A stretch of 36,130 nt of DNA. Origin: an uncultured bacterium. GTDB taxonomy: Bacteria; Myxococcota_A; Polyangia; Polyangiales; Houyiibacteriaceae. This document shows, one piece after another, positions 10,518-33,855 of this stretch (within the stretch, counting starts at the first letter, position 1; the number at the start of each line of letters is the position of its first letter). Below the pieces are notes generated by a model. That model did not search any database, was not told the DNA's origin, and worked only from the letters and a program-made list of their open reading frames with translations. The position numbers and the translations under genes were made by a program. Location of the stretch: the NCBI GenBank assembly GCA_937998345.1, contig CALLDH010000127.1, forward strand, positions 1 to 36,130, given 5' to 3'.

Positions 10518-11558
10518 ATGGAGCGCACGGAGAAGAATGTTCGGTTGGGGATGACTCTGCCGGTGGGTGGGGCGGATCACGCGGTGGGGCTTGCTAGGAC
10601 GGCCAGAGAGCGTGGGTACGACGAGATTTGGATGGCGGAGGTCAATGGGGGGGACTCGTACGCCCTCGCTGGGGCGGTCGCGCAGGGCGTGCCCGGGATG
10701 CGTATCGGGACCGCGGTGGTTCCCGCGCAGACGCGGACGCCGATGATGCATGCCATGGCAGCGATGACGCTGAGCCAGCTGACCGAGGGCAACTTCATCC
10801 TCGGGATTGGGCTTTCGTCCCCGAATATCGTGCGTGATTGGGCGGGCCAGCCCTTCAACAAGCCGGTCACGCGCATGCGCGAGCACATCGAAGTGCTGCG
10901 ACAAATGCTGAGGGGCGCGAAGACGACGTACGAAGGCAGGACGCTCTCGGTGAAAGGGTTTCGTCTCGGTGGCGCGACGGTCGGCGAGGTGCCGATCTAT
11001 CTCGGTGCGCTCAATAAGCGAATGTTGCGATTGACAGGCGCCCTTTGCGATGGCGTCTGCCTCAACATGGTGCCCGAGTCTGCGCTCTGCCAGGTCCTGG
11101 GCGAGGTACGCGCTGGCGCCGAAGAAGCAGGCCGTGATCCGAACGCCATCGAGGTCGTGGCTCGGCTGCACGTGGTGATGGCGGATGACCCGGCCATGGG
11201 ACGGAATCTGATCCGGACGGTCTTTGGCGCGTACGCGGCGACCCCCGGCTACAACAAGTGCTTCGAATGGATCGGCTTTGGAGACGAGGCCCGGCAGATC
11301 CGCGAAGCGTTTGCCGAGGGTGACCGGGCCGGTGTCGCCATGGGGGTCACCGACCGGCTCTGCGACGCGATGGCTGTCGTGGGCGATCGCGAGACAGTTC
11401 GGGCGCGAATTCGCGCCTACGCAGAGATGGGCGTCGATGTTTGTGTGGTCAATCCCATCGCCGACTCCTCAGCGGTCCCGCAGGTGCTCGAGGAGATTTC
11501 GGGCTGCCTCGACGGCCTGGACCTCCGGAATAGCGGCGTCATGCGCGCTACCGCGTGA
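10518..11558 (+). CDS. LLM-class flavin-dependent (possibly F420-dependent) oxidoreductase
   Basis: VRLGMTLPVGGADHAVGLARTARERGYDEIWMAEVNGGDSYALAGAVAQ...; bacterial luciferase-like fold pattern. Confidence 0.85.
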   Translation: MERTEKNVRLGMTLPVGGADHAVGLARTARERGYDEIWMAEVNGGDSYALAGAVAQGVPGMRIGTAVVPAQTRTPMMHAMAAMTLSQLTEGNFILGIGLSSPNIVRDWAGQPFNKPVTRMREHIEVLRQMLRGAKTTYEGRTLSVKGFRLGGATVGEVPIYLGALNKRMLRLTGALCDGVCLNMVPESALCQVLGEVRAGAEEAGRDPNAIEVVARLHVVMADDPAMGRNLIRTVFGAYAATPGYNKCFEWIGFGDEARQIREAFAEGDRAGVAMGVTDRLCDAMAVVGDRETVRARIRAYAEMGVDVCVVNPIADSSAVPQVLEEISGCLDGLDLRNSGVMRATA

Positions 11559-11583
11559 GGGCTCTTGAGGGAGGGGCCGGTTC

Positions 11584-12618
11584 GTGCTCTCGTGGAGGAT
11601 GCGTCGCTTCTTTCTCCTGTTGCCTCTGTTGCTGATTGGTTTGCTAGTCAGCGGCGATTCGTTCACCAGTGGGGCCAGCGCGGAGGCTAGTCCCGAGCCT
11701 GAGCACCAGCTTCGAATCGCGACCCTGGCGCCCAGGCAATCCGGGCTCGGCAAGGCGTTTCAACAGATCCGCAAGGAGCTCAAGGAGCGTACCGGGGGGC
11801 AAGTCAATCTCAAGATGTACGACGGCGGCGTCGCCGGCGACGAGTTGACCGTCGTTCGAACAATGCGCGTGGGTCAGCTCGACGGCGCGTTGTTGACGTC
11901 GACAGGCCTCGGTGCGCTCGTCCCGCAGGTGCTGGTTCTGCAGGCGCCAGGGCTAATCACCAGCTACCCCGCGCTCGACGACGTTCGCGACAAGCTCGGC
12001 CCCGATCTCGAATCGCTCTTCGACAAAGCCGGCTACGCGCTGATCTCCTGGGGAGATTCTGGCCAGATCCGGATCTTCTCCAAGCACAAGATCCAACATC
12101 CCGATGACCTACGAAATGTCCGACCCTGGGTCTGGCGTGGCTCTCCGACGATGCGGTCGTTCATCGAAGCCGCTGGGGCCAACGGCGTGACGATGGGGCT
12201 GCCCGAGGTCTTCTCCGCCCTTCAGACCGGGATGGTAGACACGGTGATCGCATCGTCGATCGGCGTCCTTGCCTTCCAATGGCACACGCGGCTCAAGACG
12301 ATGACCAAGCCCCCAGGCGGGATCGTAGTCGGCGCTTACGTCATCAAGAAGGACCGGCTCGCCCTGCTTCCGAAAGAGGCCCAGGATTACATTCGGCAAG
12401 GCGCGATCGATAATGCGGCGGCGTTCCGCGAAAGTGGGCGAAAGCTCGACGAGGAGGCAAGCGAGGCGCTCGCTAGCCGACTCAAGTCCGTCAACCTTTG
12501 GCGTAACCAGCATGCCTGGCAGGCGGTTCAGCGTGAGGCTCGGGCCTCGCTCGCAGGGCGGCTGTATTCGAAGTCCTTGCTGATCCGGGTGCAGGAGATT
12601 GTGGGCAAGAACTACTGA
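11584..12618 (+). CDS. TRAP-type (DctP-like) periplasmic solute-binding protein
   Basis: Signal peptide; LRIATLAPRQSGLGKAFQQIRKELKERTGGQVNLKMYDGGVAGDELTVVRTMRVGQLDGALLTSTGLG. GTG start; alternative ATG at 11599. Confidence 0.8.
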   Translation: MLSWRMRRFFLLLPLLLIGLLVSGDSFTSGASAEASPEPEHQLRIATLAPRQSGLGKAFQQIRKELKERTGGQVNLKMYDGGVAGDELTVVRTMRVGQLDGALLTSTGLGALVPQVLVLQAPGLITSYPALDDVRDKLGPDLESLFDKAGYALISWGDSGQIRIFSKHKIQHPDDLRNVRPWVWRGSPTMRSFIEAAGANGVTMGLPEVFSALQTGMVDTVIASSIGVLAFQWHTRLKTMTKPPGGIVVGAYVIKKDRLALLPKEAQDYIRQGAIDNAAAFRESGRKLDEEASEALASRLKSVNLWRNQHAWQAVQREARASLAGRLYSKSLLIRVQEIVGKNY

Positions 12619-12989
12619 TGAGTACGATGCTTAGACTGTGTGCTGTATTGCTTCTGTCGAACGCAGGCGCGTTCGGTTGCGGCGACGATGCCGCCGGTAA
12701 CATGGTGCTTGAGCCGGGCCCGACCTGCATCGCGTTCTGCGACAAGGCGGCGGCCGAATGTGGGGTCTACGCCGCTGACGAAGCCGCGTGTGCGCAAAGT
12801 TGCGAGCAAGACTTGGCAGGAGGGCAAGCGGCGTCAGAAGCTTGCGGCGACGCGATCGAGGTGGCGCTTCAGTGCGCCACCGAGCTCGACTGCCAGGAGA
12901 TCATCGACCGGCTCAATGGGGAACCGATCGAGCTGTATCCATGTCGGTCCGAGGTCGAGGACGTCGATGAAATCTGCCTGCTGAACTAG
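12618..12989 (+). CDS. Small Cys-rich putative lipoprotein
   Basis: N-terminal signal ending in AFGC; 11 further Cys in CIAFC/AECG/ACAQSCEQD pattern; TGATG overlap with the DctP-like gene. Confidence 0.65.
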   Translation: MSTMLRLCAVLLLSNAGAFGCGDDAAGNMVLEPGPTCIAFCDKAAAECGVYAADEAACAQSCEQDLAGGQAASEACGDAIEVALQCATELDCQEIIDRLNGEPIELYPCRSEVEDVDEICLLN

Positions 12990-13026
12990 AAGAGGGCGCT
13001 GCACGATGCGGGCGGGCCCGTTGACG

Positions 13027-13055
13027 CAAAAACCCGCGAGCCGAAGCTAGCGGGT
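13027..13055 (-). terminator. Intrinsic terminator with TTCG tetraloop for the minus-strand lipoprotein gene
   Basis: Minus strand: ACCCGCTAGC-TTCG-GCTCGCGGGT-TTTT; near-perfect stem then T-run. Confidence 0.8.
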
Positions 13056-13093
13056 CCCTGCGGATTCGAGCCTTAGGAGCTCGGCCTACCCCA

Positions 13094-13912
13094 CTACGGG
13101 ATCGTGAGGCAGACCTGACCTGAGGTCGCTTCTGGCGTGAGGATCGGATCCTCCAAGTTGATGTCTATCTGATTGGCCGGTTCGCACGCGAACACCACGT
13201 CGAGGACGAATGGATCCGTGATCTTCAAGCCGAAGGTGATTCCCGTCGAGAGGTTGAAACATGCCTCGGTGCCACTTGCTGCAAACGTGTAGGTTCCGTT
13301 GTTGGGCACGAAAGGAAGTGGGAATGGTCCCTTAATGCCGTTGTTGTTCGGATCCGAGGTCAAGTCCAGCTCGATCTCGGGCAAGGTCACGATGACGTCC
13401 GGCCCGGTCGCACCCGAAAGTGCGGTGACTGGAAGGGTGGCTCCTGGCAGGACCTCTGCGGTGTTGAGGGGGCCCACCACGCCTTCGGCGCCCTCGATGA
13501 ACGCTTCGCTCACGACAAAGAAACCGTCGAAGCCTACGTCGAACGCGCCGCCTCCTGTGGTTGCCTCGTCCGGAGCGACCTCCAAAACGGCCGCGAATCC
13601 AAACGTGTTGCCGAGAGCCTGACAACCATAGTCGCAGTCCACGAGGCTGGCGGGGTCGCTACAGGTGGGGTCGCCTTCAGCCTCTCCGTCGCAACACGCG
13701 CACGAGTTCGAGAACTCTGCAGTGCTCGGAATACAGCCTTCAGCTGCACCGCCGGTACCGCCACCGCCGGTGCTGCCACCAGTGCCGCCGCCCTGGGTTT
13801 TGCAGAGTCCCGTCTCCGGATCGATTTGGCATCCCTGGATGGGAGGGCCGATATTGCAGGCCGTGGCCGCGCCAGCCAATGCGAGAACCCAAATGAGATT
13901 GCTTAGTTTCAT
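13094..13912 (-). CDS. Putative lipoprotein, Cys-rich N-terminal part with Gly/Thr linker
   Basis: MKLSNLIWVLALAGAATAC lipobox-like; GGGTGGSTGGGGTGG linker; CACCDGEAEGDPTC. Confidence 0.7.
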   Translation of the reverse strand: MKLSNLIWVLALAGAATACNIGPPIQGCQIDPETGLCKTQGGGTGGSTGGGGTGGAAEGCIPSTAEFSNSCACCDGEAEGDPTCSDPASLVDCDYGCQALGNTFGFAAVLEVAPDEATTGGGAFDVGFDGFFVVSEAFIEGAEGVVGPLNTAEVLPGATLPVTALSGATGPDVIVTLPEIELDLTSDPNNNGIKGPFPLPFVPNNGTYTFAASGTEACFNLSTGITFGLKITDPFVLDVVFACEPANQIDINLEDPILTPEATSGQVCLTIP

Positions 13913-13944
13913 GGGATCGGTTCCTTTCTGTTGGCCACACCCGG

Positions 13945-15879
13945 TTAGAAGATCATGGCTGCGCGCAGCTGTACGGTCCAGAGCCAGGCGTCGTTGAAGC
14001 CGGCGTTTGTAAAGGCTTGTTTCGGTTGCATCATGCCCGTTTCGAGGTCGACCCAGATGATGTCCTTGGCACCCATCTTCGCACGAATGGCGAGGTCGGC
14101 CTCCCAGCCCATGAAGCAGCCCGGGTCGAAGCCACATTTACCGTTTTGGTTGCCTGTGCCGTATATCGTCGAATCGAGTGCACTGGCCCAAGCGATCAGG
14201 AACTGCGTGTGCACCTCGAGCCCCGGGACAACCGTGAAACGGAAACTCGGCATCAAGTACTTCGAGTTCCAGACGCTGCCATTGGCGCCAAGCTCCTGGG
14301 CGCCAAGCGGGGCAAGGGCCTGATACGTCAGTGCCTTGAGCGCAACCTGGTACATCAACATCCCTACCTTGACGTTCTCGTTGAAGCCCCGGGTAGTGAG
14401 TTTCTTGCTTCCCGGGTCCTCGGTGAAGGAGAGGACGCTCGAGTCGCCCGATGACCAGCCACCATCGAGGTTGGTAGCCCAGCTGCCCTCGTTCAAGAGG
14501 CCGATCCGGGCCATTACATTGTGGATGCCCGCGTCGCCCCTGGGACAGACATCGATGGTACAAACTTGACCTGGCCCGACGCCGGTGAAGGCCAATGCGC
14601 CACTATGACCGAGGATCGTGTGCCACTCGCCCTCGGTCGTGATCGCCAAGTTCCGTTTCTTCTTCAACGTGTGCTTCAGTCGCCATGACACGTCAGGGAT
14701 GATGATCCGGCTCTGGGTTGAACGCTGCCATCGATACACGACGTAGGCTCCCGCGAACAGCTCGTCGGTTGCGCCGCGGCCATAATCTTCATCGAACCAG
14801 GCGAGGACGTTGACGATCTCGCTCGTGCGCCGGTCGAGGTTGGTCAAGTAAGCCAGCGGAAACGTCGAGCGCTCGTCCCAGGTAGTATGGAACGGCTGGA
14901 CGTTGGGCTGGGCGCTTGGCGGGTCTGGAAAGGAGGTGACCGCACCGACGATCGGATCCTGCGAGAGTCGGTCGTAGACGAACGCATAGAGAAGCGGGGT
15001 CGAGCGCGTGTCGCCCTTGCTGATGCCTCGCGCCAGTGTGACCGGTCGTGTGGCGAACAAGATACGGTCGAACGTCTCGCCTCGGTAGAACTCACCCCAT
15101 TCGGCGAGGCCGTTGCCCGCGTGCGTCAGTTGGCCCATGCCCCAGTGTGATTCCATTCGGCCGACTCGGATTTGACCGATGGGGACCAAGAACTCGATCC
15201 AGGCACGCTCCAGCTTCAGCGACTCGGTGAGATCGAAACCATTGCGGTCGGTCTTGGACTGGTCGACCGCGAAGAGCGGAACGCCGAATACGCGATTATT
15301 GTCGCCGTACACGACGTTGTCCAAGCCGTCGATCGTGAAGCGTAGACGCGCGATCGGAAGGTCAGGGTTCGGGCCGTAGGTGACTTCCGGATCGAGACGC
15401 AGTCGCATCTCGCCGTACGAGGCGTTCTTGCTCGGGAAGGCCGATTCGCTGGGGATGCTTCCCTTCGGCATCGGTGCGTTGCCGATCCAGTTGTAGCGAG
15501 TGCGGTAGTATCCGTGGAACTTGAACTGAAGCGGGACCGCGTCTTCGCCTTTCTGGCGAACGCTTTGTCCGACCTCGCCCATGCTGCTGCGAATCCTTTC
15601 TCGCTCAGCCGCCTCGGTGCCCATCCCGGCCTCACCGACTTTGGCCGGCGTACTCGCGCTCACCGGCCGGGCGCCGACGACCGTTGGCGTTTCGGAGTCG
15701 GCTTCCATGGCCCTGATCTTGTCGAGCTCCGACATCGGCTCTTCGGCTTCCGTGGCTTCGGCCGCAGGCGCGTCTGGCGGAGATTCATCCTTGTTGTCGC
15801 CTGCGTACTGCGCGGCAGCCGGGCCGGTTGACAACAACGCCGCCATGAATGCGACGAGTGCGATCCATCCATACTTCAC
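13945..15879 (-). CDS. Outer-membrane beta-barrel-like protein, resembles TIGR04551 family
   Basis: Signal peptide VKYGWIALVAFMAALLSTGPAAAQ preceded by SD GGAGGT; FHGYYRTRYNW, GRMESHWGMGQLTHAGNGLAEWGEFYRGETFDRI; terminal aromatic (..LRAAMIF). Family name from memory. Confidence 0.6.
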   Translation of the reverse strand: MKYGWIALVAFMAALLSTGPAAAQYAGDNKDESPPDAPAAEATEAEEPMSELDKIRAMEADSETPTVVGARPVSASTPAKVGEAGMGTEAAERERIRSSMGEVGQSVRQKGEDAVPLQFKFHGYYRTRYNWIGNAPMPKGSIPSESAFPSKNASYGEMRLRLDPEVTYGPNPDLPIARLRFTIDGLDNVVYGDNNRVFGVPLFAVDQSKTDRNGFDLTESLKLERAWIEFLVPIGQIRVGRMESHWGMGQLTHAGNGLAEWGEFYRGETFDRILFATRPVTLARGISKGDTRSTPLLYAFVYDRLSQDPIVGAVTSFPDPPSAQPNVQPFHTTWDERSTFPLAYLTNLDRRTSEIVNVLAWFDEDYGRGATDELFAGAYVVYRWQRSTQSRIIIPDVSWRLKHTLKKKRNLAITTEGEWHTILGHSGALAFTGVGPGQVCTIDVCPRGDAGIHNVMARIGLLNEGSWATNLDGGWSSGDSSVLSFTEDPGSKKLTTRGFNENVKVGMLMYQVALKALTYQALAPLGAQELGANGSVWNSKYLMPSFRFTVVPGLEVHTQFLIAWASALDSTIYGTGNQNGKCGFDPGCFMGWEADLAIRAKMGAKDIIWVDLETGMMQPKQAFTNAGFNDAWLWTVQLRAAMIF

Positions 15880-24786: not shown

Positions 24787-25386
24787 ATGCCGCCACTCGT
24801 CGTTTGCCTCGATCTAGAAGGAGTCCTCATCCCGGAGGTCTGGATTGCGTTCGCCGAGAAGACCGGAATCGACGCCCTGCGGCGCACCACTCGCGACGAG
24901 CCGGACTACGACAAGCTCATGCGCGGCCGCTTGGAGATCCTCGACGAGCACGGGTTCAAGCTGTCCGACATCGACGAGGTGATCGGTACGATGGAACCAC
25001 TGCCAGGCGCGAAGGAGTTTCTCGACGAGCTTCGCGACCGAACGCAGCTGATCATCCTGAGTGACACCTTTTACCAGTTTGCCGCGCCCTTCATGCGCCA
25101 ACTAGGCCAGCCGACGCTCTTTTGCCACGAGCTCTTGACCGACGAGACCAATCGGGTGACCGACTACCGCCTCCGGATTCCCGACGGCAAGCGCAAGGCT
25201 GTCGCGGGGCTCAAGAACATCGGGTTTCGGGTGCATGCCGCCGGTGACAGCTACAACGACACGACCATGCTGAAGGAAGCGGACCGGGGCATTTTGTTCC
25301 GGTGCCCGGACAACGTTGCCGAGGAGTTCCCGCAGTTTCAGCGTACGGACTCGTACAGCGAGCTACTGCCGGCGCTCCTCGACTAA
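24787..25386 (+). CDS. thrH: Bifunctional phosphoserine phosphatase/homoserine phosphotransferase
   Basis: [66 protein letters not shown]. Confidence 0.9.
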
Positions 25387-26313
25387 TCCTTGGATTCCGT
25401 CGCCGTACACGACCGCGTGCACCGCCTCGGCGGCTTGCAGGATTCCCAACCCAGGATCGGTGAGCAGTTGCGTTTCAATGCTGCGAACCTGGCCCGACCG
25501 GCACGCCGAGAGCGATTCGAAGCCCGGGTGGCGGCAAAGAGAGCGCTCCGTCCCTGGGTTGGTGATGATCCATGGGGGGTCGAGGCTGAGTAGCTGCTCG
25601 TTGGTGAATGCAGGCCAGCCGTGGAATCCCGCTTCTGCCGCCATGTCGATGAGGCCCCCGGCGACGAGGACGTCATGAAAGCTGGTTCCAGCGGTTCCGC
25701 CATACAGCCGGTCTCCGTGAATCCCGACGTAGAGGCCGCGCCGCCTATCCTCCGCCGCGACGTCCGCGGACACGGCTTCGAGCTTTCGCAAGAGGTCATC
25801 CGCAAGCTCCTCGCCGCGTGCGGCCACATCGAGCACGGCCGCGAGCCGCCGGATGTTCGGCAGCAGCGTCTCCAGCCCCCGCATCTCCCCCATGTCGAAC
25901 ACATTCAGGCCGGCGTCCTTGAGGCGCTCGACCTGGCGTCGATCGATGAAGTTGTTGATGAACACGATATCAGGCCGGAGCTCGATGATCGTCTCGATGT
26001 CGCGTGCGTGCTCGACGCCGATCTTGTCTTGGTACGCGCGAGACTCCTGGGTGCGGAGCGTATGACCGCTCACGGCCAGCAGCCGGTTCGGCTCGATGAT
26101 CTCGATCAACACCTGATCTGCGACGATACTCGTGCTGACGATGCTTGCGTACTCGCGAACCGCGATGCGTTCGCCTGTCGCATCTTCGACAGTGCGCACA
26201 CCACCGCCCCGATCGTCGAGGGGAGCCCTCTTCGAGACGGCGCCGGTGAGCACTACACCCAGGATCAACGCAGCGACCAGGAGCGCAGCATTGACTTCAT
26301 TGACCCGCTTCAT
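25363..26313 (-). CDS. btuF: Cobalamin/iron-complex ABC transporter substrate-binding protein
   Basis: Periplasmic binding fold: [46 protein letters not shown]; adjacent to btuD/btuC-like genes and a B12 riboswitch. Confidence 0.85.
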
Positions 26314-26314
26314 A

Positions 26315-27145
26315 TCACTCAGTGCCAGTGCCAGTGCCAGTGCCAGTGCCAGTGCCAGTGCCAGTGTCCGCGTCGGTGCCTGGTGCGAAGCCGATTCGGG
26401 CGTTCTCGATGAGCTTCACGCCGTAGACCGCTCGAATCGGTTTTGGGCTGACCACGTCTCCGGTACTCCCCTGCTCGACGACACGGCCCTCCTGCAACAA
26501 GAGCGCGCGGTCGGTCGTGCTGAGGGCATCGGCCAGGTCGTGCAGCACTACGATCAAAGTGTGCTTGCGTGCCGCGAGCGTTCTGATCAAGCGCAGGACC
26601 GCCATCCCTTCGCCGACGTCGAGCGCCGCGGTCGGCTCGTCGAGCAAGAGAATTGGTGCGTCCGACGCGAGCGCGCGGGCGAGCAATACGCGTTGCTGCT
26701 CTCCGACCGACAGTTGGGTAAAGATGCGATCGCGGAGAACGTCGGCATGTGCGGTTTGGAGCGCATGGTTGATCGCGTCTCTGTCGTTCTTCGACATTCC
26801 GCCAAAGCTGCCGCCGTGGACATACCTGCCTAGTGCCACCACTTCCTCGACCGACAACGCAGAGCGAAGCAGGCTGCGTTGCGGCACGTATGAAACTCGT
26901 TTCGCCCTTGCCCGGCTAGAAAGCGAAGCGACGTCGGCGCCCGCGATCTCCACGCGGCCTTCGTATGGTAGCAAGCCGGCCAGGGCTTTGAGCAGCGTGC
27001 TCTTGCCAGCACCGTTGGGTCCAAGAAGTGCGAGCACTTCACCGGGGTTGGCTTCGAGGCTCACGTCGCGTAGCACGCTCCGCCCGCCGAGGGTGACGCT
27101 TACGCCCTGGGCACGAAGGCCCAAGTGTCCGTCGCCGTTACGCAT
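26315..27145 (-). CDS. btuD: ABC transporter ATP-binding protein (BtuD/FecE-like) with (GT)n C-terminal tail
   Basis: Walker A GPNGAGKST, signature LSVGEQQR, Walker B ILLLDEPTAALD; C-terminus TDADTGTGTGTGTGTGTGTE. Confidence 0.9.
   Translation of the reverse strand: MRNGDGHLGLRAQGVSVTLGGRSVLRDVSLEANPGEVLALLGPNGAGKSTLLKALAGLLPYEGRVEIAGADVASLSSRARAKRVSYVPQRSLLRSALSVEEVVALGRYVHGGSFGGMSKNDRDAINHALQTAHADVLRDRIFTQLSVGEQQRVLLARALASDAPILLLDEPTAALDVGEGMAVLRLIRTLAARKHTLIVVLHDLADALSTTDRALLLQEGRVVEQGSTGDVVSPKPIRAVYGVKLIENARIGFAPGTDADTGTGTGTGTGTGTGTE
26320..26367. repeat. Hexanucleotide tandem repeat (CAGTGC)7 + CAGTGT
   Basis: Seven perfect CAGTGC units read directly; minus-strand coding for (TG)n at the BtuD C-terminus. 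Confidence 0.95.
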
Positions 27146-28112
27146 AGGCCCGCTCCCGACGAAGCCTGATCAGGAGCAGCAAGAACAGCGGCGCACCGAT
27201 CAAGCCGGTGACCACGCCGAGCGGGATCTCGCTCCGCGACGGGATGACGCGCGCGATGATGTCGCAGGCGACCAGAAAGACGCCTCCCGCTAGGGCGGCG
27301 GCAGGGATCAGCCGTTGATGCTTCGTCCCAGCAAATGGGCGCAGCATGTGTGGCACGACCAGGCCCACGAAGCCGACGTTGCCACCCACGGACACCGCAC
27401 CAGCGACCAGTACGCTCACCCAAATCGCGGACCACCAGCGCACCGCACCGACATTGGCGCCCATCGACTGCGCCTCCTCTTCGCCGCTCAGAAGAAGGTC
27501 GAGAGACCTGCCCCAGAACCAGCACGCGACGAGCGCTACGGCGATCAGCGGGAGCGCAAACGCCAGCTGCCGAGGGCCGGTTCCGCTCACCGAGCCGAGC
27601 GAGAACGAGACGACCGCTCGGCCCAGCTCCCAGGTTTCCTGGGCGACGCTGGTTACGAATGCACTCAGGCTCAAAAAGAGCGCGCTCAAGACGAATCCCG
27701 TGAGCAAGAGAGCGAGAAGATCCTGGGTGACCCGCAAGAAGAGCAGGAGAACCGCGAGAGAAACCAACGCGCCAATGAAACAACCGATCGGCACGGTCAT
27801 CTCCGGAACGACGAAGCTGCCGCCGACACCGGCAAGCCCGTAGGTGAGTAGGGCGACTTGCCCTCCGAAGCTCGCGCCTGCGGTCGTCCCGAGCACCGAA
27901 GGGCTTGCAAGCGGGTTGCGGAACAACCCCTGCACGACGACGCCGCCGACGGCCAGCGCTGCGCCGGCGAGAAACGCCGCGGCTAACCGATAGCCGCGGA
28001 GCTTCAGAAACGTATCGCGGAGCTCCGGGTCCGTGAGATCACCCGATCCGACGAGCACGGCGAGTGCTCCGGCGACGAGCAACAGTAAGAACAGCAAGGG
28101 ATACAGCCGCAC
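27138..28112 (-). CDS. btuC: ABC transporter permease (BtuC/FecCD family)
   Basis: Multi-TM; LAAAFLAGAALAVGGVVVQGLFRNPLASPSVLGTTAGASFG family signature; overlaps btuD start by 8 nt. Confidence 0.9.
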   Translation of the reverse strand: MRLYPLLFLLLLVAGALAVLVGSGDLTDPELRDTFLKLRGYRLAAAFLAGAALAVGGVVVQGLFRNPLASPSVLGTTAGASFGGQVALLTYGLAGVGGSFVVPEMTVPIGCFIGALVSLAVLLLFLRVTQDLLALLLTGFVLSALFLSLSAFVTSVAQETWELGRAVVSFSLGSVSGTGPRQLAFALPLIAVALVACWFWGRSLDLLLSGEEEAQSMGANVGAVRWWSAIWVSVLVAGAVSVGGNVGFVGLVVPHMLRPFAGTKHQRLIPAAALAGGVFLVACDIIARVIPSRSEIPLGVVTGLIGAPLFLLLLIRLRRERAYA

Positions 28113-28164: not shown

Positions 28165-28330
28165 TGACGGTGTAAGAGGGATCGGTCATCGTCCGGCCAA
28201 GCAGGGAAGTCGGTGAGAGGCCGGCGCGGACCCGCCACGGTATGTGACTGAATGTTCTGTCGTGATGCCACTGGGCGCTGAGCCTGGGAAGGTGACAGGA
28301 CCTGGGGTCGCGAGCCCGGAAACCTGCGAA
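28165..28330 (+). promoter_or_regulatory. Cobalamin riboswitch 1 (upstream of BtuB-like receptor)
   Basis: CAGGGAAGTCGGTGAGAGGCCGGCGCGGACCCGCCACGG...GCCACTGGG...GCCTGGGAAGG...CGAGCCCGGAAACCTGC: B12-riboswitch core and B12 box. Edges approximate. Confidence 0.92.
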
Positions 28331-28425
28331 CGCACTTTTTGTGTCTATCACCTCGGGGACGGTGAGAGTCGCGCGTCGGGATTCCTGTCTCGTTCGATCG
28401 ACCGTTTCCGAGTCAGGAACGGGTT

Positions 28426-30462
28426 TTGGTCGACATCCGGCAGTACGGGAGTGAGCGACAGCGGTGGTGCACACACACCGGCGTGGGAGTCTCCGTGCTG
28501 ATCTGCGCCGTTGCGATTCTCGCAAGATCTGCGGATGCGCAGTTCGGCGAAACCGCGGAAGTCGAACGTCTGATTCCGGCCACCAACTCACTCGATGCCA
28601 CGGCCGCGGGGAGCGAGATTCTCGTTCGAGATCGCATCGTTCCGCAGACGACCGAGCAGCTGCTTCAGGAATCGGCAGGGACGCGGGTGGTTTCCGCCGG
28701 GGCCCCGGGTAGTTTCTTTTGCCTCCGTCTACGCGGCGTGGCCTGTGAGCAGTCGACCGTGATGCTCGGGGACGTGCCGATCAGTAATCCCGACACGGGG
28801 TCGTTCGACCTGAGCTTGATACCGCTTGAAGCGGTGGACGGCTTTCAGGTCTTCCGAGGTGGTGCACCCGCCTGGCTCAACGACGGTTCGGTCGGGGGGG
28901 TCCTGCGATTCATGCCGCGCACATACAAGGAGAACGAGGTTGGCGGACGTGTTACAGCCGGCAGCTTCGGGTCCTGGCGTGCCAACCTGTTCGGCGCCGC
29001 CGCAGGAGAGAAGGTGCAGTTCTTCGGCACCGCCGGAGCGGCGGGGGCCCGCAATGATTACCCGTACCTCGATGACAACGGAACCCGATTCGACCCCAGC
29101 GATGACGTCGAGCGCGCCCGCGAGAACGCAGATTTCCTCGAAGGTTTCGGCTTCGCCAATCTCGTCGCTGAGACCAGCGACTCGAGCCAGTTGGATCTGA
29201 TCTTCCTGGGGCTCGGAAGAGACCGAGGTGAGCCGGGGCCGGGCTCGAGTCCTGCACTTCAAGCCCGGACCAAGGCCACACACCTCATCGGTTCGGCTTC
29301 ATGGCTGCAGGAGAAGGGCGGCGAGCACCCGTACCGTCTCCAGGTCGCGGCGAACTACGACTACGGCAGGAACCGATTCATCGACGAGTTCGCGGAGATT
29401 GGCAACGGCGGTCCGCAACGAACGAACGATCAGACTCACGCGATTTTCGGACGCGTGGCGGGGTCGGTGGAGGTCATGCCCTGGCTCGAGATCACGACCA
29501 TTGGCTCAGCCCGTTATCAAGCCTTCGATCCGCAAGACGAGCTTTCCACGATTTCCGATCAGGCATCCGATCGCCTCTCTGCAGCCGGCACCCTGGAGAC
29601 CCGTTTCTACGGCGAGCTTGGCAAGGTGGCGCTGGAGCTTCGGCCGAGCGTTCGCCTGAGCTGGACGCGCGCGTCGATTCGGCAGACTCAACTCGGGGGG
29701 CCGACCGAGAGCCAGTCTTCAGAGTTCCTTCCGACGTATCGAGTGGCCGGGGCGGTCGCGCCCCTGGAGTGGCTTGCGTTCCGAGGATCGGTCAGCAGTG
29801 GCTACAAACTGCCGTCGCTGGTTCAGCTCTTTGGCAACCGCGGGACGGTGGTCGGTAACCCCAATCTGGTTCCGGAACGGGCCCTCGCGTACGACGCCGC
29901 CGTCACCGTTCGAGGTCACAAAGGAGTCGTCAGTGGCTACGCATCGATAGGAGCGTTCCTGACCCATATCGACGACGCGATTCGGTTTCGCAGGACGTCT
30001 CAGTTCACGGTGATCGCAGAGAACATCGATTCGGCGCGGAGTCGGGGCGTCGAAGTAGAGCTGCGCGGAGGCGTCACGCAGCACTTCGTTGTCCAGAGCG
30101 AGATGACCTGGACACAGGCAATCGATAACACGAGTGGCGCCCAGCTGCCGGGGCAGCCCGAGTGGGTCGCCTTTGCGCAGCCCGAAGCTCACTCCGGCAC
30201 ACTGTCGAAGTGGGTGTCCGACATCATGGCGTTCTTTCAAGTCTCCTACATCGGCAGGAGCTATGCCGATCCCGCGAACCTCGTCGAGATTCGCGCACGC
30301 ACCGTCCTCGCGACGGGTTGCGGTGTCGACCTGTTCGAGGGCAGCCTGGGATTGAGCTTTCGAGTAGACGACTTGCTCGACGTGCGCGGTGACGATCTGC
30401 TGGGCTTTCCGCTGCCCGGTCGTCGATACACCGGTCGGCTGAGCTACCGCTACGCCTGGTAG
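28426..30462 (+). CDS. btuB: TonB-dependent cobalamin receptor (BtuB-like)
   Basis: Signal peptide; plug-domain pattern TTEQLLQESAGTRVVS...CLRLRGV...VMLGDVPISNPDTGSFDLSLIPLEAVDGFQVFRGGAPAW; terminal aromatic YRYAW; B12 riboswitch upstream. TTG start. Confidence 0.88.
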   Translation: MVDIRQYGSERQRWCTHTGVGVSVLICAVAILARSADAQFGETAEVERLIPATNSLDATAAGSEILVRDRIVPQTTEQLLQESAGTRVVSAGAPGSFFCLRLRGVACEQSTVMLGDVPISNPDTGSFDLSLIPLEAVDGFQVFRGGAPAWLNDGSVGGVLRFMPRTYKENEVGGRVTAGSFGSWRANLFGAAAGEKVQFFGTAGAAGARNDYPYLDDNGTRFDPSDDVERARENADFLEGFGFANLVAETSDSSQLDLIFLGLGRDRGEPGPGSSPALQARTKATHLIGSASWLQEKGGEHPYRLQVAANYDYGRNRFIDEFAEIGNGGPQRTNDQTHAIFGRVAGSVEVMPWLEITTIGSARYQAFDPQDELSTISDQASDRLSAAGTLETRFYGELGKVALELRPSVRLSWTRASIRQTQLGGPTESQSSEFLPTYRVAGAVAPLEWLAFRGSVSSGYKLPSLVQLFGNRGTVVGNPNLVPERALAYDAAVTVRGHKGVVSGYASIGAFLTHIDDAIRFRRTSQFTVIAENIDSARSRGVEVELRGGVTQHFVVQSEMTWTQAIDNTSGAQLPGQPEWVAFAQPEAHSGTLSKWVSDIMAFFQVSYIGRSYADPANLVEIRARTVLATGCGVDLFEGSLGLSFRVDDLLDVRGDDLLGFPLPGRRYTGRLSYRYAW

Positions 30463-30535
30463 CTTGACTTCGTTTTGCCACAAACTACCGTGACCCCTCT
30501 TGCGAGGGTCGAAGGCGGCTTCATCGAAGTCGTTG

Positions 30536-30700
30536 GAGATAGGCCGGCGGAGAGAAATCCGTTCGGTTGAACAGGGAAGTCGGTGAGAGGCCGACGCGGA
30601 CCCGCCACGGTATGTGACTGAATGCGCTGCCACTACGCCACTGGGTGAAAACCTGGGAAGGCGGCAGAGCCTAGGGTCACGAGCCCGGAGACCTACCCAT
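30536..30700 (+). promoter_or_regulatory. Cobalamin riboswitch 2 (upstream of lipoprotein gene)
   Basis: ACAGGGAAGTCGGTGAGAGGCCGACGCGGACCCGCCACGG...CGCCACTGGG...CCTGGGAAGG...CGAGCCCGGAGACCTACC; near-identical core to riboswitch 1. Edges approximate. Confidence 0.92.
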
Positions 30701-30810
30701 CGTGAGCTCACCCAGATCGCCTCGGGGATGGCAGGTAGCTACATGGTTACAGTTCTACGTTTGAACGCGCCTTGTTTCTGTCCGTCTTCCGCCGAAGCTG
30801 GAGGAAGCAA

Positions 30811-32082
30811 ATGGAACGGGAATTCGCGAACACACTTCTAGTCTGCGCCGCGCTCGCAGCGGTCGGCTGCGGGGACAGCAACTCGGCGCTCCGTCCCCTC
30901 GATGCAACGCCGCGATACGCGGTGGTCAGCTCCGACTACAGCAGCTCGTCCATCGCAATGCTCGACGAGGATTTCGAGGTCATCGACGAAAGCTGGCTCA
31001 ACTCCGGGACGACGTACCCAGGGCTGGTCGCTGCCTTGTCCGGCGACGTCGTATTGCCGAATCGGCAAGCCGGCGACGAAACATTCGCTGTCATCGATCG
31101 GCTTTTCACCGATGTCGTCACGCGCTTCTTCGTGCCCAGCGGAAATCTCAACGGGCAGGCGCGTACCCATGGAGAGGTGGGCGACACCGGCTTCTCCTCG
31201 AACCCGCAGGACTTCATCTTCGTCGATGCGGATAGCGCCTGGGCGCCGCGCTACGACTCCAACTTCAATCCTGCAGCCCCCCCGGAAAACCAAGGGAACG
31301 ACCTGTTCGAGATCAACCCGACCGACATGAGCGCCACCGGGGCCCGAATCGACCTCTCCTCTCTCGATACGACCGCCACCATCATGACGGACGACGGCCC
31401 CGTCGAAGTCGATGTCTTTGCACGGCCGAGCCGAGGCGTGCTCGTAGGGTCGAGGATCGTGGTCGGTCTCGATCGCATCAGCGGGAGCTTCGACGCAGCC
31501 GGCGATGGAATGGTCGCGATCGTCGACCTCGAGGAGGAGTCGGTGCAAGGCCTGGAGCTTGCCGGGCTCAAGAGCTGCGGGAACGTCGTTCCGGTGCCTG
31601 GAGCGCCCAGCAAGGTCGTCGTGGCGTGCGTCGGTTTCGCGCAGCCCTACGGGGACGAGCCGCAGGTACGCGCCTCATCGGGCGTCGTTTTGCTCGACGT
31701 GGCGGCAGCTGAGGTCACGATCGAGCGGCTTTGGCGAGTGGCCGATCACCCCGGGTCCGCAATTGCTGTGAACTCCGTCATCGCGATCGACGCGGAGCGA
31801 GTTGTCGGTGTGGCGAACCCCGACTCGACGAGGACCCTCGATGCCTTGTACGAGACGGATCTCGCGACCGGAGTGCAAGAGCTCGTTCACGAGTCCGGCG
31901 GCTCCTTCGTCGTCGGCCTCCCGGCCTACGATCCAGACAGCGAGATGCTCTACGTGCCGGATGCGGCGGAGAATGGTGTCGTCGAGTTTGCCTCTGAGAA
32001 CGGAACCTTCGTCGAAACGGGTTCCACCAGCATCGCTCCCGGCCTCGGCCTCCCGCCGACAAAGGTCTACTTGCTCGACTGA
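30811..32082 (+). CDS. B12-riboswitch-controlled putative lipoprotein with beta-propeller-like repeats
   Basis: SD GGAGGAAG then ATG; signal LLVCAALAAVGC|GDSNS; repeated blade-like segments (VVLLDVAAAEVTIERLWRV, GVANPDSTRTLDALYETDLATGVQELV, SEMLYVPDAAENGVVEFA). Confidence 0.7.
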   Translation: MEREFANTLLVCAALAAVGCGDSNSALRPLDATPRYAVVSSDYSSSSIAMLDEDFEVIDESWLNSGTTYPGLVAALSGDVVLPNRQAGDETFAVIDRLFTDVVTRFFVPSGNLNGQARTHGEVGDTGFSSNPQDFIFVDADSAWAPRYDSNFNPAAPPENQGNDLFEINPTDMSATGARIDLSSLDTTATIMTDDGPVEVDVFARPSRGVLVGSRIVVGLDRISGSFDAAGDGMVAIVDLEEESVQGLELAGLKSCGNVVPVPGAPSKVVVACVGFAQPYGDEPQVRASSGVVLLDVAAAEVTIERLWRVADHPGSAIAVNSVIAIDAERVVGVANPDSTRTLDALYETDLATGVQELVHESGGSFVVGLPAYDPDSEMLYVPDAAENGVVEFASENGTFVETGSTSIAPGLGLPPTKVYLLD

Positions 32083-32091
32083 CGTCCAGCG

Positions 32092-33855
32092 CTACTGCGG
32101 CTCCGCCGGTGACTCCTCCGGGGGAGTGTGAGTGTCAGCGTCAGCGTCAGTGCCAGCGTCAGTGCCAGCGCCGGTGTCAGCGTCAGTGCCAGCGCCAGTG
32201 CCAGCGCCAGTGTCAGTGCCAGCGTCAGTGCCAGCGTCAGCGTCAGTGTCAGTGCCAGCGTCAGCGTCGGTGTCAGCCCCAGCGCCAGCGCCGGTCTCAG
32301 TGCCAGCGCCGGTCTCAGTGCCAGCGTCGGTGTCAGTGCCGGCGTCCGTGCCACTCGGGGCGTCCGGGTCCTCCTCGGCGTTGCCGTTTTTCTTCTTGGC
32401 CTTCTTCTTCTTGTACTTCTGCTGAACGTCTTTCGCGCCCTTGCTCGCGACCGAGACGGCGCCGGCGACGTACAAGACGAGGGCGGAGATGGTGGCTTTG
32501 GTTCGCTCGTAGCCGCTCACCTGCGCGTCGGGATCGATTTTGAATGACAGGGCGTCTCCCTTTCCGAAGTACCCGTTCGCACCGAGGGTGAGGCGATATC
32601 CATGCGTGTCGACGCCTATCGAGAAAGCGGCGCCAAACATGTTGACCTGGTCCGGCGCGTACACGGTCGAGGTAGCGGGCACGTCGGGCGCCGAGGAGAT
32701 GTTGGTGAACAGGCCGCCGGCCACCACGACCTTGCCGAACATGTGCTCGGACCCGACCGCGACGTTTGGCGTCCAACGCCGTTCGGTCGAGTTCGCGTAG
32801 TAAACACCGAGGTTGCCAGGGACGTCTGCGATTTGGTCAGGGCGATCGAAGACGGCCTGTGTGCGCACGGGGCCCGTGACCGAGGCATCCACGGATAGGA
32901 CCGTCGTGGCATTTGCCTTGAACTCGAAACCCGTCCGCAGCTCGAACGGGATCGGTATGTTCGTCGAGAGGTCGCCTTTATCGAACACGAAATACGAGTC
33001 GTTCCCGTCCACCGCTGTCGTGGTGCGCCGAAACACGTTGCCCTTCTGCGTCACGGGAATGCCGGGCGGCTGGACCATATAGCCCATCTGCCAGCGCGGG
33101 TTGATGCGATGGAGCACGCCCACTCTGAAGACGAGGTGGTACGTGTCCACCCCGATTCCGGTGCTTGATGTTATCGAGTTGCCACCTATCCGTAGACCGC
33201 TCTCCTCGATCGTTCCGCCGGACGCGAGTCCGATGTCTTCGTTATAGTTCCCGCTCTGGTCTGCGAGGAAACCGCTCAGCCCAATGGCGACCTTCTTGGC
33301 GACGTGTGCCGCGAACGAAACCCCGTACCACCTCGTCTTGAAATTGTTGCTCAGGCGTAGGTCGAGACTGGCCTGGGCCTCGACCTGGGTCGAGCCGGCG
33401 CCAAAGCTCTCACGCGCAACCTCGAACGTGCTGTACCCGACGGCAAACTGGTGATCGCCAAATCGCTTGCGTCCCATCTTCACGACTGTCCCGATGAAGG
33501 ACGGGAGAGTCGTCGTGCCCGTGGACGTGAAGTCCGTATCGAGGTTCGTCGAATCGAACGCGTTCTCGACGGTGCGCCGGGTGAACACGATCGAGCTCAG
33601 GCTGCCCATGAGCTGGAAACGACCGCCCGTTACGATGCCTGCCGGGTTGTAGTACGTCGCCGATGGGTCGTTTGCGATGCCAGTGTACGCGCCACCGAGC
33701 CCCATGGCACGCTCGCCGATGGGGATGCTTCTGTAGTAGAGGGCCTGCGCTTGGGAACGATTCGGCGTAAAGGCAGAGCCGAGACAGATGGTGGCGACGA
33801 CGGCCGTCAAGGCGAACGATCTCACCCTCCGTGTTCCGCTGTGTGAGGCCCGCAC
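32092..33855 (-). CDS. FadL/OmpP1-like outer-membrane protein with Lys-rich segment and [G/D/E][T/A] repeat tail
   Basis: Signal peptide; IGERAMGLGGAYTGIANDPSATYYNPAGIV typical of the superfamily; C-terminus YKKKKAKKKNGNAEEDPDAPSG then long alternating repeat. GTG start. Confidence 0.75.
   Translation of the reverse strand: MRASHSGTRRVRSFALTAVVATICLGSAFTPNRSQAQALYYRSIPIGERAMGLGGAYTGIANDPSATYYNPAGIVTGGRFQLMGSLSSIVFTRRTVENAFDSTNLDTDFTSTGTTTLPSFIGTVVKMGRKRFGDHQFAVGYSTFEVARESFGAGSTQVEAQASLDLRLSNNFKTRWYGVSFAAHVAKKVAIGLSGFLADQSGNYNEDIGLASGGTIEESGLRIGGNSITSSTGIGVDTYHLVFRVGVLHRINPRWQMGYMVQPPGIPVTQKGNVFRRTTTAVDGNDSYFVFDKGDLSTNIPIPFELRTGFEFKANATTVLSVDASVTGPVRTQAVFDRPDQIADVPGNLGVYYANSTERRWTPNVAVGSEHMFGKVVVAGGLFTNISSAPDVPATSTVYAPDQVNMFGAAFSIGVDTHGYRLTLGANGYFGKGDALSFKIDPDAQVSGYERTKATISALVLYVAGAVSVASKGAKDVQQKYKKKKAKKKNGNAEEDPDAPSGTDAGTDTDAGTETGAGTETGAGAGADTDADAGTDTDADAGTDAGTDTGAGTGAGTDADTGAGTDAGTDADADTHTPPEESPAEPQ
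32127..32350. repeat. Degenerate hexanucleotide tandem repeat (consensus CRGYGY on + strand)
   Basis: Uninterrupted 6-bp periodicity CAGCGT/CAGTGC/CAGCGC/CGGTGT over about 220 bp; encodes the alternating tail on the minus strand. Confidence 0.95.

Follow-up and report, generated by a model that had tools for sequence, protein, structure and literature searches.

Does lipoprotein-assisted capture of vitamin B12 at the cell surface, as performed by BtuG in Bacteroides, also occur outside Bacteroidota? BtuG binds B12 with femtomolar affinity and has been reported to be exclusive to Bacteroidetes, a restriction explained by competition in the gut (PMC6143338); BtuB–BtuG complexes and the seven-bladed fold of BtuG have been described (PMC10404256). 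Our limited literature search found no report of a BtuG-like protein in Myxococcota. The question is raised here by a lipoprotein gene in the window, a stretch of 36,130 nucleotides that constitutes one contig of a metagenome-assembled genome of Myxococcota (3.47 Mb, 346 contigs, 79% complete).

The lipoprotein gene and its neighbours

The lipoprotein ORF (30811–32082, forward strand) encodes 423 amino acids with a signal peptide at residues 1–19, MEREFANTLLVCAALAAVG, and a lipobox in which LAAVG precedes the lipidated Cys20, and the encoded protein is predicted to be a beta-propeller. A GGAGG Shine–Dalgarno (SD) sequence at 30800–30804 lies 6 nt 5' of the ATG. Both features had been proposed by a sequence-only reading of this DNA, and both stood up to our analysis. 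A TTG at 30772 was rejected as an alternative start, the additional in-frame codons overlapping the SD region. The same reading recognised no named family, and neither the lipoprotein nor its family had a Pfam, NCBIfam or PDB match by sequence search; single members gave only weak matches to PQQ_2, Lactonase, SGL and beta_rpt_yvtn.

The gene lies directly downstream of a BtuB-like TonB-dependent receptor, as had been claimed: the receptor ORF (28426–30462, forward strand; true start probably near 28495) contains Plug and TonB_dep_Rec domains, and its best PDB matches are BtuB chains of B. theta. Its top NCBIfam match was TIGR01779 (TonB-B12, 1.9e-22), but this fell below the cut-off. Divergent from btuB, on the reverse strand, are genes for a BtuC-like permease of the FecCD family (27138–28112), a BtuD-like ABC ATPase (26315–27145) and a BtuF-like periplasmic binding protein with a Peripla_BP_2 domain (25363–26313).

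None of the 20 lipoprotein carriers that were tested yielded a CbiC (PF02570) match, and 286 of 290 Myxococcota genomes gave none either, whereas the genus of this organism has both MetH and methylmalonyl-CoA mutase. The organism therefore needs corrinoids, which it probably imports. Judged from gene content, the pattern suggests a near phylum-wide lack of corrin-ring synthesis in Myxococcota; just four of the 290 genomes had a detectable CbiC. Since the absence is phylum-wide, it is not discriminating and was discarded as a marker of lipoprotein carriers.

Two cobalamin riboswitches

The lipoprotein gene had been credited with a complete cobalamin riboswitch of its own, and this proved correct. 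RF00174 matched at 30524–30714 on the forward strand over the full model (positions 1–189; 94.3 bits, E 2e-22), the start given earlier (30536) falling slightly inside the element. The other riboswitch, at 28172–28345 on the same strand (80.9 bits, E 1.4e-18), precedes btuB, and these two were the sole cobalamin riboswitches found with Rfam in the incomplete genome.

Just past the btuB stop begins a promoter-like motif, TTGACT-N16-TACCGT (30464–30491, forward strand), with a sub-consensus −10 element. A consensus promoter scan did not list it. The pattern TTGAC[TA]-N16-TANNNT occurred with fixed spacing in all eight aligned members of the genus, in which the region from the btuB stop to the lipoprotein aligns end to end. 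The core of the lipoprotein riboswitch is nearly identical in the eight, and the SD sequence is GGAGG in most.

A hairpin that may sequester the SD sequence, with CTTCC ... GGAAG spanning GGAGG, occupies 30786–30807 (forward strand) and is inferred to be a candidate translational expression platform. Since CTTCC at 30786–30790 can pair with the SD sequence, translational control of the lipoprotein by SD occlusion is suggested, as an inference. A 56-nt window over the element gave a z of −2.5 and a longer stretch was unremarkable; the hairpin is kept in most, but not all, relatives of the eight-member alignment. A terminator-type platform for btuB is likewise an inference, from a terminator-like hairpin CCGTTTCCGAGTCAGGAACGG followed by GTTTTGG (28402–28422, forward strand) 3' of the btuB riboswitch. 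This call is weak, since the number of such hairpins found was not above that in shuffled sequences.

A family linked to btuB and cobalamin riboswitches

A protein search of 290 Myxococcota genomes located the lipoprotein family in 59 of them, at 60 places in all. A pattern search from a 10-row alignment returned 22 loci, the named relatives being Myxococcota or Deltaproteobacteria MAGs; profile searches, which were confined to Myxococcota genomes, gave further strong matches, then a gap, then a weaker, remote tier with E-values from about 1e-22 upwards. The remote proteins (L140–L157) are mostly lipoproteins of about 350 amino acids with common motifs such as NPQD.

A BtuB-like gene lies directly upstream of 42 of the 60 copies (41/59 plus the window), and in 38 a same-strand cobalamin riboswitch lies no more than 8 kb upstream. 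Ten of these 38 riboswitches stand directly before the lipoprotein gene; the remainder are mostly 2–4 kb upstream, before btuB. One or both contexts accompany 49 of the 60 copies. In the other 11, two of them at contig ends, neither BtuB nor a riboswitch is nearby, and a rescan near the unlinked copies for riboswitches missed by strict filters found none. With roughly 100 riboswitches over some 370 Mb, we estimate that chance would place only about 0.1% of genes near one. Given that expectation, the 49/60 context and the E-value of 2e-22 for the riboswitch, the linkage exceeds chance. Homologues of the protein thus generally co-occur with btuB, B12 riboswitches or both, and the lack of linkage that the sequence-only reading had named as a refutation was not seen. 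Among the 20 remote loci, 11 adjoin a BtuB-like gene and eight have a same-strand upstream riboswitch.

Some copies lie apart from btuB. In two genomes (G014 and G019) no btuB lies closer than about 9 kb to the lipoprotein gene, which retains its own riboswitch; in G014, a good assembly, the lipoprotein and btuB are on different contigs, each with a riboswitch, and B12-riboswitch regulation is retained there without linkage.

Two neighbourhoods are recorded here as separate observations. At one locus (L063 8797–10065, G053:C15), the lipoprotein gene, with its own riboswitch, is divergent from two genes at 10533–14848 whose N-termini, recognised by eye, resemble methylmalonyl-CoA mutase subunits. 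At another (L114 7315–13187, G266:C993), a different YncE/DUF5074-like propeller lipoprotein and then a CobN-like chelatase lie behind a cobalamin riboswitch, and a further riboswitch nearby precedes CbiZ and CobD.

Predicted fold

An AlphaFold2 model built from the lipoprotein sequence alone was unusable (pLDDT 34). With 20 aligned sequences, the prediction was confident (pLDDT 91.4, pTM 0.91) and all-beta, with 29 strands, in keeping with the repeated blade-like segments noted earlier. Ranks 1 to 13 of a Foldseek search of the PDB with this model were all Bacteroides BtuG structures (E 5.6e-11 to 4.7e-9), among them 8blw_B (5.6e-11), 8ptf, 8ptd, 8okv, 3dsm, 8bmz, 8bmx_D and 8bai. The match was moderate: identity was 12–16%, and the TM-score was 0.52–0.63 by query; by target it was 0.62–0.73, except for the two-domain chain of BtuG1, at 0.40. 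The first match outside BtuG was 3scy (9.3e-9), other propellers followed within about two orders of E-value, and many non-B12 propellers were returned. The proposed propeller fold thus survived structure prediction: the lipoprotein is confidently predicted to be a beta-propeller whose fold is nearest that of BtuG. From the count of 29 strands in the model we infer a seven-bladed type.

Independent support for a closed propeller ring comes from a natural circular permutant of the family (L109 7443–8864, JAHDCI010000024.1), a single ORF that keeps an intact lipobox and an acidic tether and that has a cobalamin riboswitch and a BtuB-like gene upstream. Positions 306–411 of the family profile come first in this protein (residues 74–178, i-E 4e-20), and positions 13–302 come second (residues 189–472, i-E 1e-79).

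The lipobox is present in most relatives, and many members have a long tether, rich in Gly or Asp, after the lipidated Cys. Invariant residues, in mature numbering, include D23, G59, D60, R78, Q97, N112, D115, R128 and D145, together with a Cys pair at 237/254. The majority of conserved columns fall within the first 40% of the chain; in BtuG2, the hydrogen bonds to B12 come from blades 1 to 4. With a median pI of 4.6, the family is acidic. Examined for a Bacteroidota-type LES motif, many members show acidic residues after the Cys, seen without comparison with other Myxococcota lipoproteins. Net charge was dropped as a sign of a BtuG-like acidic face, as some control propellers are acidic too and one BtuG is not.

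Relation to BtuG and other propeller lipoproteins

The lipoprotein resembles BtuG (BtuG1–3 of B. theta; PF16819/DUF5074) in being a propeller lipoprotein encoded directly after btuB under cobalamin-riboswitch control, with BtuG as its top PDB fold match. It differs in its low identity and its phylum, in a mature chain that exceeds the solved BtuG propellers by about 60 residues, in the invariant Cys pair of its family and, in the window genus, in a riboswitch separate from that of btuB; binding by the Myxococcota lipoprotein has not been shown. PF16819 matched neither the window protein nor 58 relatives and 10 remote relatives, and its search of 33 genomes gave no match at these lipoprotein loci. 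Two PF16819 matches elsewhere in the 33 genomes were set aside, one lying amid NHL/YVTN-type proteins and one being a separate YncE-like lipoprotein. Phmmer and profile searches found no match of the lipoprotein family to BtuG chains in the PDB, and a BtuG fragment searched against viral contigs found nothing.

Profile comparison was not decisive. We aligned BtuG proteins of B. finegoldii, P. massiliensis, Prevotella, Chondrinema and Persicobacter, each of which adjoins a TonB receptor. The trimmed family profile matched BtuG with a probability of 88.8 (E 2.5e-6), against 42 for generic YncE-like propellers and 0 for reversed BtuG; with the remote tier added, the values were 95.6 for BtuG and 73 for generic propellers. 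BtuG itself matched the generic YncE-like propellers at 98.2 (E 3e-14), and is thus closer to them than to the lipoprotein family. These profile probabilities place the family within the broad superfamily of propellers, without either demonstrating or ruling out that it shares a specific origin with BtuG. The suggestion of a BtuG analogue, either of independent origin or strongly diverged, gains support from the fold and from the btuB and riboswitch linkage, while the choice between convergence and remote homology is undecided. By sequence the lipoprotein is not BtuG/DUF5074; it is best read as a BtuG analogue or a very remote homologue.

Other known systems are similar in part. XusB of B. theta (DUF4374), a xenosiderophore lipoprotein with a seven-bladed propeller, likewise has a TonB-dependent transporter as its partner (PMC13142918), but it binds ferric siderophores, whereas the Myxococcota family is controlled by B12 riboswitches and partnered with a BtuB-like receptor. 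BtuJ (DUF4465) and BtuH are B12-riboswitch-regulated accessory B12-binding lipoproteins, and DUF4465 B12 binders are recorded in Myxococcota too (PMC13398666); DUF4465 is, however, a beta jelly roll, in contrast to the propeller predicted here. Neither DUF4374 nor DUF4465 had a Pfam match in the lipoprotein or its relatives. YncE/YVTN and lactonase-type propellers have the broad fold in common and account for weak matches of single members, but they lack a B12 context and their profile match is weaker than that of BtuG.

Proposed role and alternatives

Riboswitch control and adjacency to btuB indicate that this propeller lipoprotein is probably a B12-catching partner of BtuB like BtuG. We consider it likely, in the absence of binding data, that it is a B12-repressed outer-membrane propeller lipoprotein of the seven-bladed type that captures corrinoids for the neighbouring BtuB. 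Low intracellular B12 would release expression of both genes through the riboswitches before btuB and the lipoprotein. The propeller, whose surface exposure is inferred, would be tethered to the outer membrane via the lipidated Cys and a flexible linker, and would hold a corrinoid in its central pocket before delivering it to BtuB; B12 as ligand and the contact with BtuB are likewise inferred. TonB-driven import through BtuB would then be followed by BtuF–BtuCD.

The lipobox is silent on the leaflet, and our analysis established no surface-export signal for Myxococcota lipoproteins, so the protein may instead reside in the inner leaflet, facing the periplasm, and take corrinoid from BtuB, relay it to BtuF or help to process cobamides. 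The position of several copies between btuB and the btuCD/btuF genes, on the same strand, would suit such a function. We regard it as unlikely, since the locus already supplies a BtuF-like protein, the nearest folds are those of surface BtuGs and the tethers after the Cys are long in many members. Little credence can also be given to a B12-repressed envelope protein with another ligand, such as a complex of cobalt or another metal, a carrier protein for B12 or, by comparison with XusB, a siderophore-like ligand. Pairs of a TonB receptor and a propeller lipoprotein are indeed known for siderophores (XusAB, PMC13142918), and the non-B12 propellers among the Foldseek matches leave room for it; cobalamin-riboswitch control and BtuB-like pairing across the phylum argue against it, as do the solitary copies that retain their own B12 riboswitch.

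Descent from Bacteroidota BtuG itself, as a true orthologue gained by gene transfer along with btuB, appears very improbable. The Foldseek rank of the BtuG structures, the Bacteroides BtuBs at the top of the receptor's PDB matches and a btuB–lipoprotein gene order as at Bacteroidota loci would all fit. They are countered by the lack of a PF16819 match and of any phmmer or profile match to BtuG chains in the PDB, by the relation of BtuG to generic YncE propellers, closer than that to the family, and by the breadth of the family across Myxococcota, which argues for old residence. A capture protein serving BtuB remains our preferred reading. We would go further only tentatively, and with slightly more doubt than conviction, to propose that an unnamed, phylum-wide Myxococcota superfamily of corrinoid-binding propeller lipoproteins joined BtuB independently, so that a propeller partner may have evolved at least twice.

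If the preferred reading is true, bacteria that depend on B12 would, as a general strategy not limited to Bacteroidota, use lipoproteins to help capture it. An unannotated protein family gains a function that can be put to the test, and propeller-to-BtuB corrinoid transfer can be compared in a second system that has diverged.

Hexamer repeats in the window

Arrays of the hexamer GYCAGY were observed in the window at 26320–26366 and 32131–32353, each at the 3' end of a gene: the first in the BtuD-like ORF, the second in a 587-aa ORF (32092–33855). Such arrays occur on many other contigs, with 189 overlapping 30-mer matches genome-wide and none for a reversed control pattern. A comparable repeat-rich C-terminus was seen in the relative G014 (L119 3339–4133).
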